Source: Nocardioides luteus (lineage in GTDB: Bacteria; Actinomycetota; Actinomycetes; Propionibacteriales; Nocardioidaceae). From it: a DNA stretch of 64,000 nt. The first letter of the stretch is position 1. Every line of letters starts with the position of its first letter. The notes under the pieces are model-generated. The model saw only the letters and a list, made by a program, of their open reading frames with translations, was not told the origin of the DNA and did not search any database. The stretch lies in NCBI RefSeq assembly GCF_015752315.1, contig NZ_JADOVJ010000001.1, positions 5,510,501-5,574,500 of the forward strand. The letters run 5' to 3'. Shown here piece by piece: positions 49,552 to 54,239 of this stretch. Both the position numbers and the translations under genes were made by a program.

Positions 49552-49768
49552 GGGTCTTCCTTCGAAGTCTAGGCGCGCTGCAACATGCGGCGCGCTTGCA
49601 TTGAAACACCCGTGCGGGTATCCGTCAGTCGATTCGACACACAGAACCCCAACAGCGCTCGTAGAGCAGGCTATGCAGCAGTGAACAGCTCGACCCCTGG
49701 GCCTCCGCCCAGCGGTTCCGGGCATCCTCGGGGCATCTGACGAAGGAGACGGCCCCGAAAACGAAGTC

Positions 49769-49796
49769 GAGGCCCCCGACGGGAGCCTCTGACCTG
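49769..49796 (-). terminator. Terminator of tRNA-Ile, second copy of the duplicated sequence
   Basis: The same 28 bp as 48736–48763, forming GAGGC/GCCTC stem with CCCG/CGGG extension. It lies 12 bases beyond the 3′ end of tRNA-Ile on the minus strand. Confidence 0.72.
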
Positions 49797-49808
49797 GTGA
49801 AACTGCTG

Positions 49809-49882
49809 TGCGCTTAGGAGGACTTGAACCTCCGACCCCCACATTATCAGTGTGGTGCTCTAACCGTCTGAGCTATAAGCGC
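49809..49882 (-). tRNA. tRNA-Ile (GAT)
   Basis: Minus-strand cloverleaf from 49882: acceptor GCGCTTA, TA, D arm GCTCAGACGGTTAGAGC, anticodon stem CCACA/TGTGG with loop CTGATAA (anticodon GAT), T arm GGAGGTTCAAGTCCTCC, closing TAAGCGC A. CCA is not encoded (CAG follows), unlike the tRNA-Ala and tRNA-Leu of this window. Confidence 0.95.
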
Positions 49883-49974
49883 AGGCGCCAACTGGGGGTG
49901 GAAGCCCCACCAGCAGGCGAGAGGAAACATTACCCGCCCGCCGCCCGCGGAACCAAAACGGTGACACCCTGCCC

Positions 49975-50023
49975 ACCCTGGGAAGGTCAGTCCGAACCTG
50001 GTTCGGATGAGCCTCCCCAGGGT
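49975..50023. repeat. 49-bp palindrome, left end of the DUF559 cassette
   Basis: Near-perfect inverted repeat centred at 49999: outer arms ACCCTGGG/CCCAGGGT (49975–49982 and 50016–50023) and inner arms TCCGAACC/GGTTCGGA (49991–49998 and 50000–50007). It ends 12 bases before the ATG at 50036. It shares 37 of 49 bases, by my hand alignment, with the palindrome at 50916. Confidence 0.88.
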
Positions 50024-50035
50024 TAGGGTTCCAGC

Positions 50036-51040
50036 ATGTCCGACTCGGAGGACCTGGCGGCGATCTTCGCGCGTGAGGATGCGGCTCGCTTGCTCGATGC
50101 TCAGCGGCGGATGCAGCACGGGGTCGCGAGCTACGCCCAGCTGACCGCTGGGGGGCTCAGTTGGGTCGACGTCGAGCGGGCGGTACGCCGCAACGAGCTG
50201 CGCCGGGTGCACCCTCGCGTCTACATCGACCACACCGGCCCGCTCACCTGGGAGCAGCGGGCCTGGGCAGCGGTGCTCTACGCCGACCCGGCCGTGCTCT
50301 GCCGGGACAGCCTCGAGGCGCCCAGGGGCCGTGACGACGGCCGGCCGATCCACGTCGCGATCGACCACTCCCGCAAGGTGATGCCTCAGCCAGGCATCGT
50401 GGTCCACCGGATGCGCGGGCTGAAGCTCAAGGCGTACGGTGGCATGCCGCCACGTCTCAAGGTCGAGGACAACGCTCTGGCGATGGCGAACGAGGCGGCG
50501 TCCGAGATCGACGCGATCGGGCGGGTTGCCGAGGTGGCGAGCAGGTCGTACGTCACCGCCGCCAGTCTCCAGGCGGCGCTGGACCGCGCGCACTCCCTAC
50601 GCCGGCGCAAACTCATCCAGGGATTGGTGGACGATCTGGCGTCGGGCACGCACTCTGTGCTCGAGCACGGCTACCTCACCAAGGTCGAGCGGCCCCACGA
50701 CCTGCCAGCGGGCAGGCGCCAATCTCCCCGGGTCGGTTCCACGGGAAACCAGCACCGCGACGTCGAGTATGAGGCGTACCGGCTGGTGGTCGAGCTCGGC
50801 GGTGCGCTCGGCCACGACTCCTGGCGAGACCAGGCTCGCGACGCGGACCACCAAGAACGGATGGCCCGGAAACCTGCGCCCATGCGGCGACACCTGCGAA
50901 GCATCATGCAAATGAAACCTGGGGAGGGCCATCCGAACCATGTTCGGACTGCCCTCCCCAGGTTGAGAGAAGCGGGTGCGGCTCAGTTCTCGGTGAGCTC
51001 GACCTCGACGCCACCGAGCAGGGCGGCGGCCATGTTGTAG
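50036..51040 (+). pseudogene. Truncated DUF559 / AbiEi-like protein gene
   Basis: The reading frame from ATG 50036 gives an N-terminal winged-helix, AbiEi-like domain (YAQLTAGGLSWVDVERAVRRNELRRVHPRVYIDHTGPL), a linker, and the beginning of a Vsr/DUF559 nuclease-like domain (VEYEAYRLVVELGGALGHDSW). After about 50850 the match is lost. In another frame the same stretch reads KNGWPGNLRPCGDTCEASC and stops at 50915, which looks like the original C-terminus, so a deletion with frameshift is inferred. The family motif VVELDG appears as VVELGG, a lost catalytic Asp. The read-through reaches 51040 and overlaps the DUF3566 gene by 58 bases. The restored stop directly precedes a 49-bp palindrome. Confidence 0.72.
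50916..50964. repeat. 49-bp palindrome, right end of the DUF559 cassette
   Basis: Inverted repeat centred at 50940: outer arms AACCTGGGGAGGG/CCCTCCCCAGGTT (50916–50928 and 50952–50964), inner arms TCCGAAC/GTTCGGA (50932–50938 and 50942–50948). It begins one base after the restored stop codon at 50913–50915. It may also terminate the minus-strand DUF3566 transcript. Confidence 0.88.
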
Positions 51041-51539
51041 AGGAACGCGGCGAGGGTGGCGACGGCGGTCATCAGGACGATGTTGACCACCGAGACGACC
51101 ATGGTGAAGCCCATGACGCGGGCGAGGCCGAGGTAGTCCTGCACGTTCCAGCCGGCGCTGGAGTCACCGACGACGTCCTGGACCGCCTGGTTGATCGAGT
51201 CCCAGACACCGGCGGCGCCGAGCACCGACCAGATGACGAAGACGGCGACGATCACGACGACGCTGAGCGCGATCGAGAGCAGGAAGGCCATCTTCATGAC
51301 CGACCACGGGTCGATCCGGCTCAGGCTCAGCCGGGCACGGCGGGCCGAGCCGCTGACCGCGGCCCGCTCCGCGCCGGCTGGGCCGGAGGTGCGGGCGGTC
51401 GAGGCGACCGCCGAGGTCGTACGCCTGGCAGCGTTGGCCACGGTGTCAGTGATCCGCTGGGTCACCGGCTGTGCTGCGGTCTCGTTCCGCTCGGTCATCG
51501 CGACTCCCCCAGTCGTGCTGTCGGCGGTGCGGTCCGTCA

Positions 51540-51540
<1 letters not shown>
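50983..51540 (-). CDS. DUF3566 membrane protein
   Basis: Membrane protein (185 aa) of the DUF3566 family, always found downstream of gyrA in actinobacteria. A 75-residue Thr/Ala-rich, probably unstructured N-terminus is followed by the conserved part: RARLSLSRIDPWSVMKMAFLLSIALSVVVIVAVFVIWSVL, then GLARVMGFTMVVSVVNIVLMTAVATLAAFLYNMAAALLGGVEVELTE. Two membrane helices. The function is unknown. The ATG shares its A with the gyrA stop (TGATG). The 3′ end overlaps the broken DUF559 reading frame, more evidence that that frame is not native. Confidence 0.92.

Positions 51541-54239
<2,699 letters not shown>

Follow-up and report, generated by a model that had tools for sequence, protein, structure and literature searches.

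A broken gene between two matching palindromes in Nocardioides luteus and a possible class of palindrome-homing AbiEi-nuclease elements in Actinomycetes

The 64,000-nucleotide stretch of the Nocardioides luteus genome analysed here (the window) contains, in the gap between a tRNA-Ile gene and a DUF3566 gene, a broken AbiEi-DUF559-like gene bounded by two 49-bp palindromes (Table 1). Comparison with intact relatives suggests that it belongs to a selfish nuclease that homes to palindromes, in which one and the same palindrome would serve as operator, element boundary and target; we put the probability of this reading, with its putative steps of binding, cutting and copying, at just under one half. 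The evidence for it comes from the matching of the two palindromes around each gene, their conserved geometry, and the occupied and empty states of orthologous sites.

An earlier note on this DNA had described two 49-bp palindromes of shared plan, closely bracketing one gene that had lost a segment and its frame, and all of these points were confirmed. The palindromes are identical at 37 of 49 bases, each has a 3-base centre between arms that pair at 18/23 (left) or 21/23 (right) positions, and their RNA folding energies (-34.0 and -40.9 kcal/mol, respectively) were equalled by 0/200 shuffles. The left palindrome stops 12 bp short of the ATG, and the right palindrome, from 50916, directly follows the TGA of the C-terminal frame (50913-50915), where it is also located just beyond the stop codon of the DUF3566 gene on the other strand. 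Alignment with intact orthologues (327-328 residues) showed that 107 bp are gone near the 3' end of the window gene, and that the Asp of the VVELDG motif is replaced by Gly; the window copy is dead and would be an old, inactivated element. The palindrome search proposed in the note found the inner core TCCGAACNNNGTTCGGA at two sites in the 5.82-Mb genome (≤1 mismatch), both of them the window palindromes, and the exact core in 2/198 genomes of the family, the second being G176 with one site, at a locus where no palindrome exceeded the scan threshold.

Table 1. Features of the window element and its surroundings
Feature	Position	Strand	Remarks
Left palindrome	49975..50023		23-N3-23; proposed AbiEi-box operator and element boundary
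Broken AbiEi-DUF559-like gene	50036..50915	+	Winged helix-turn-helix/AbiEi N-terminus kept; nuclease part truncated
Right palindrome	50916..50964		23-N3-23; directly 3' of the C-terminal-frame stop
tRNA-Ile (GAT)	49808..49882	-	Left neighbour
DUF3566 gene	50983..51540	-	Right neighbour; adjoins gyrA-like open reading frame 51540-54239
Intact orthologues for comparison with the window gene			L007, L008, L009, L010, L018

The suggestion that the unit is an inserted cassette is supported by the state of the same gap (site A) in other Nocardioides. The DUF3566 locus search covered 30 loci of 203 matching genomes, comprising nine near genomes picked by their matches (the own genome, G000, with G198, G200, G241, G249, G284, G325, G326 and G335) and 21 more distant ones. 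The tRNA-Ile/DUF3566 gap is gene-free in the 21 distant genomes, with 78-153 bp between matches, and filled in seven of the nine near ones. G249 has an unrelated hairpin there (by eye). In G198 (L151/L318), the element is reduced to a perfect right palindrome, a few final codons and the first half of the left palindrome; the palindrome has outlasted its gene here, perhaps as the DUF3566 terminator. Alignment of eight site-A orthologues (the window, L007, L008, L009, L010, L011, L012 and L018) showed five to be intact and three broken (the window, L011 by an internal deletion and L012 by a frameshift); palindromes flank all eight on both sides, the left one being degenerate in L008.

The two palindromes of a locus match each other. 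In a set of 70 Nocardioides loci, from which duplicates and site-A copies (L003, L011, L014-L017, L021 and L052) and the cut-short L022 had been dropped, a palindrome scoring at least 11 was found upstream of the gene in 36 and near the stop codon or downstream in 46, with none in the shuffled set and none in the in-gene set (one shuffle and one in-gene stretch per locus). For the 31 loci with both palindromes at a score of at least 9, the mean local alignment score of the left palindrome was 30.6 against its own right partner and 10.3 against the right palindromes of other loci, a difference in favour of the own partner that was reached in 0/10,000 permutations. The own partner ranked first in 23/31 loci, and of the eight exceptions, four are mutual orthologues from site A. 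A class-wide sample of 54 loci picked from the match list gave matching copies on both sides in 28 (26 of the 50 loci outside the window's family), compared to 3/54 for the best control. As background, matching was rare across 800 kb of the own genome, where it was seen in 3/177 pairs of neighbouring palindromes (≤6 kb), and one of these three adjoins a paralogous nuclease gene. A single-probe test reached its threshold in 43/61 loci, as did its best control in 24/61, partly through close relatives, and due to these poor controls the pairing claim was rested on the permutation test. A chance origin of the palindromes was rejected by the fold shuffles and the matching permutation together. Left-right identity may provide a rough measure of the age of an element, ranging from L029, with a local score of 45 over 45 bases, to the 37/49 of the window.

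The palindromes also share a geometry. Odd lengths were found for 36/36 upstream and 44/46 downstream Nocardioides palindromes (80/82, some orthologues included), relative to 79/157 equally scoring palindromes from an 800-kb sample of the own genome; the median length is 47, with 49 commonest downstream (13) and 47 and 49 equally common upstream (8 each). Even lengths prevail in the class-wide set (33 vs 7), indicating that the palindrome centre differs by lineage. According to excerpts of a study of the Streptococcus agalactiae AbiEi (PMC3985639), this protein binds an upstream inverted repeat written as 23 bp - N3 - 23 bp, each half-site of which is predicted to accommodate one monomer, and the plan of both window palindromes is exactly the same. 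The idea in the note that the encoded protein may bind the palindromes gains indirect support from the left-right pairing, the odd lengths and the published operator. By this point it is barely credible that ordinary Rho-independent terminators flank the gene by coincidence. Both window palindromes would form very stable RNA hairpins, and unrelated hairpins are seen by eye at the same places in near relatives. However, three T-tailed terminator-like sites were found in 49700-51600, and the palindrome stems form part of none of them (one, at 49960-49977 on the minus strand, overlaps the left palindrome by three bases at its start), a copy 12 bp upstream of the ATG is no terminator of its own gene, and the matching of partners, the odd length and the AbiEi geometry are left unexplained; plain terminators were rejected on the absence of T-tailed sites from the palindrome stems and on the odd-length geometry.

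Fold matches of intact relatives indicate an AbiEi-antitoxin fold to which a probable nuclease fold of the Vsr/EDxHD type is fused, the kind found in the homing endonuclease I-Bth0305I. Matches to the AbiEi models of PADLOC were obtained (best E 2.1e-15 in L079; 1.5e-4 in L009), while DUF559 (PF04480) remains below its gathering cut-off of 20.6 in L044 and L083 (14.3 and 13.6) and gave no Pfam match in L009, L007, L177 or L079. At the window locus no AbiEii toxin gene is located beside the gene, the neighbours being tRNA-Ile and DUF3566/gyrA. Family matches were found in 186/215 Nocardioides genomes and, class-wide, in at least 128/393 genomes and at least 51/122 genera, both lower bounds as five candidates were scored per genome; the source annotation is usually that of an antitoxin-domain or hypothetical protein. 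A tblastn search of 72,556 plasmid records gave no family match, and 50,697 phage records gave two partial matches (42% and 35% identity), and plasmid or phage cargo was rejected on this basis.

Occupied and empty versions of two further sites were compared among the nine near genomes. Site B, which lies between convergent genes, contains a nuclease gene between two palindromes in G200, and in G241 a gene apparently in the opposite orientation relative to the shared right flank; the draft contig of G241 stops inside this gene, leaving one palindrome and one junction visible, and the left flank begins another contig. Five of the nine genomes (G000, G325, G326, G335 and G198) each carry a single copy of this type of palindrome, which is shortened in G326, and G284 and G249 have an unrelated hairpin. 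At site E, the nuclease gene is present in G326 and a single palindrome in G000 (1/9). In G284, a methyltransferase gene (Methyltransf_11, E 5.5e-15) is enclosed by a pair of these same palindromes, of which the right copy is the weaker, and G241 has a shortened version of this arrangement; G335 and G249 are without such a palindrome, with an unrelated hairpin by eye, and G325, G200 and G198 have approximately 650 bp of other DNA. The presence of a methyltransferase within the same palindromes suggests that the cargo can be exchanged. Relatives of this methyltransferase occur in 13/209 genomes, between such palindromes only at site E of G284 and G241; no matching pair surrounds those of the other 11 genomes in a scan (score 9 within 300 bp) that misses G284's own weak right copy and could miss other weak pairs. 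The methyltransferase was accordingly rejected as a regular passenger, and its restriction to site E looks like one capture, not a habit. The alternative offered by the note, a non-autonomous cassette lacking a transposase, is at odds with the intact relatives, whose cargo is itself a nuclease, the methyltransferase being cargo at one site. In a tree of 20 proteins, copies group by site for A and B as well as for C and D (flank matches on at least one side), the site-B copies of G200 and G241 are sisters (support 98/97), and a fifth group (L004, L050 and L051) shares a right-hand neighbourhood only. This grouping suggests lineages that tend to be faithful to their site, like homing endonucleases.

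Dispersed copies of the flanking palindromes are found in f19, another family of the class, where many of these palindromes start with ATGATCATC. The half-site ATGATCATCRNNGATC is present in 7 to 88 copies in each of 10 f19 genomes, in three copies in G675 (family f2) and in none of the other five genomes searched, and its backward control is absent from all 16. In G440, there are 36 half-sites and 11 complete palindromes, all of the GGC variant seen at the nuclease gene L213, and 10/11 are away from any listed nuclease gene. In G497, the AAT variant flanks the nuclease gene L387, eight further copies of this variant were read elsewhere, and AAG and GGC half-sites adjoin two other paralogues; G449 has 15 half-sites and no complete palindrome with exact arms. 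Exact half-sites were used for the search, making identity within them a matter of construction, and the dispersed copies agree beyond this in the outer bases and much of the central stretch. The note had set against its own reading the possibility that such palindromes occur mostly singly at unrelated genes, as ordinary terminators; this is indeed the case in f19, but the palindromes there are copies of the nuclease-flanking palindrome and not unrelated terminators.

Dispersal of this kind raises the question of a REPtron-like transposition, in which palindromes resembling repetitive extragenic palindromes (REPs) would be moved as hairpins or single strands, with the nuclease in the place of the REP-associated tyrosine transposase (RAYT). 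The architecture of a gene between two co-changing palindromes with dispersed cognate copies is shared with the REPtrons outlined in excerpts of PMC2817692, and G497 has variant-specific sets, with AAT, AAG and GGC half-sites each by a different paralogue. Nevertheless, we consider this explanation improbable: Nocardioides copies group by site across species with few solo palindromes, unlike a transposon, no Y1/HUH transposase family or domain is among the Pfam matches of six homologues (E≤1), and left and right copies are more often direct than inverted repeats (26 vs 11, with 6 ties, in the Nocardioides single-probe test; 19 vs 8, with 1 tie, in the class-wide sample).

Several other palindromes were seen in the course of these searches. 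Facing half-sites 230 bp apart occur twice in G449 (C1 5908619/5908849 and 5978840/5979070), perhaps as REPIN-like doublets. The own genome has dispersed families beginning GTGTCGAGACCAACACAGTC, GTTGTGGGCGACGAAAC and GCCGAGTCGGCGCGTC (C1 4455334, 4558812, 4695226, 4741090 and elsewhere), the third of which is also located at site B in G284 and G249. Matching pairs surround ordinary genes at C1 4747665-4749494 and 4471884-4474115 of the own genome and at L316:16742-18459, the genes reading as a sigma-factor-like pair, a MarR-like gene with an MFS transporter-like gene, and a MerR-like gene with a flavin oxidoreductase-like gene, respectively. Within the 800-kb sample of the own genome, the sole strong member of the nuclease family found is the paralogue at 4794795-4796105 (L004), whose palindrome occurs at its stop codon and a second time 0.9 kb further along, the two copies enclosing a HIT-like open reading frame (C1 4796089-4796983); a solo palindrome of the L004 type is present in G326 (C11; L321:10211-10255). 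A 63-66-bp palindrome beginning CGCTATGACAGAGGGTCNGACCT is shared by G326 and G284 (L310:9052-9114 and L315:15383-15448).

Without any nuclease-driven mobility, the gene could be a host-type or defence nuclease that is autoregulated via AbiEi boxes, with the palindromes as operator and terminator, or as two operators, and with ordinary gain and loss of the gene. AbiEi is known to repress its own promoter, where it binds two inverted repeats, as recounted in parts of PMC3985639, the upstream palindrome sits at the expected place of a promoter or 5' untranslated region, recombination between repeats can yield solo palindromes and inversion, and the PADLOC matches agree with such a role. This explanation, which we hold to be unlikely but worth keeping in view, leaves the matching palindrome at the stop codon, the conserved solo palindromes at sites B and E, the dispersed cognate copies in f19 and the methyltransferase inside the same palindromes unexplained, and the AbiEii partner is not next to the window gene.

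If the element is instead a palindrome-homing selfish nuclease, two monomers of the protein, with its AbiEi-type winged-helix part, would most likely bind each palindrome, one on either 23-bp half-site; the left palindrome would be the operator for upstream repression, the element would be delimited by both palindromes, and single copies at other places would be its targets. The nuclease would cut a solo palindrome near its centre, and a donor of the form palindrome-gene-palindrome would provide the template for repair. Owing to the symmetry of the site, each broken end could invade either of the donor's palindromes, rebuilding a full palindrome on each side in either orientation, which would explain both why the flanking palindromes are whole and why orientation could vary. 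Recombination between the two copies would delete the gene and leave a single palindrome. The comparisons above show a palindrome-bounded insertion, cognate pairing, a conserved geometry, solo palindromes at orthologous empty sites and cargo exchange at one site (E), and an apparently opposite gene orientation is read from the one draft junction of G241 at site B.

A number of observations weigh against palindrome homing. The solo palindromes are explained equally well by deletion between copies, gains and losses not being separable, and they could be deletion scars instead of targets, since no within-strain insertion was seen. The end of the G241 contig inside the gene and the sister relationship of the site-B proteins make an inversion or an assembly fault possible. 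Two intact palindromes should be cut by their own nuclease unless it is repressed. Both palindromes are present in only 31/70 loci and matching copies in only 28/54, compensatory base changes number three pairs in the right palindrome and none in the left, which is a weak result, the genome has no copy of the window palindrome beyond these two, and the commonest variant of G497, AAC, is without a nuclease gene beside it among those listed.

With more reserve, we propose a class of selfish elements in Actinomycetes in which the palindrome would be operator, end and nuclease target, and which, the target being symmetric, may home in either orientation, restore a palindrome at both sides, exchange cargo and seed dispersed palindrome families. 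If this is true, a very common family would be a palindrome-bound, probably selfish nuclease, the REP-like palindromes of Actinomycetes would gain an enzyme, many of them being traces of AbiEi-nuclease homing and not of HUH transposases, and the DNA binding of type IV antitoxins would be linked to homing. Dozens of natural pairs of a protein and a long palindrome would then be on offer for decoding specificity. The name AbiEi does not by itself mean a toxin-antitoxin system.

No description of palindrome-flanked AbiEi/DUF559 genes was found in the open-access literature, and the palindrome-bracketed AbiEi-nuclease system is apparently both general and undescribed. It resembles REPtrons, going by excerpts of PMC2817692 and PMC3733652, in having a single gene between two co-diverging palindromes and, in the 10 f19 genomes, dispersed cognate copies, whereas the window palindrome has two sites only in its own genome. 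The RAYT is a HUH tyrosine transposase, whereas window-type elements encode a probable Vsr/EDxHD-type nuclease fused to a DNA-binding part of the AbiEi type; their palindromes are approximately 35-65 bp, compared to 20-40 bp for REPs (in portions of PMC3733652), and their flanking copies are mixed in orientation and more often direct, whereas REPs are given as always inverted around the RAYT gene in the relevant part of PMC2817692. The EDxHD homing endonuclease I-Bth0305I is placed among group I intron enzymes in excerpts of PMC3943268 and has one split target, whereas the window-type gene stands between genes and keeps two whole palindromes; the single palindromes at sites B and E would correspond to homing-type empty alleles, with a putative role as targets. 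An AbiEi fold and a 23-N3-23 upstream inverted repeat are shared with the AbiE type IV toxin-antitoxin system, from which the window gene differs in having no adjacent AbiEii toxin, a nuclease fused on and a second palindrome at the stop codon. Unlike DUF559/Vsr-like nucleases (3hrl, NGO0050), window-type proteins are below the DUF559 cut-off, fused to AbiEi and bracketed by palindromes. By analogy, the element resembles both a REPtron that is without the defining enzyme of REPtrons and a free-standing homing endonuclease with predicted cleavage of its palindrome.
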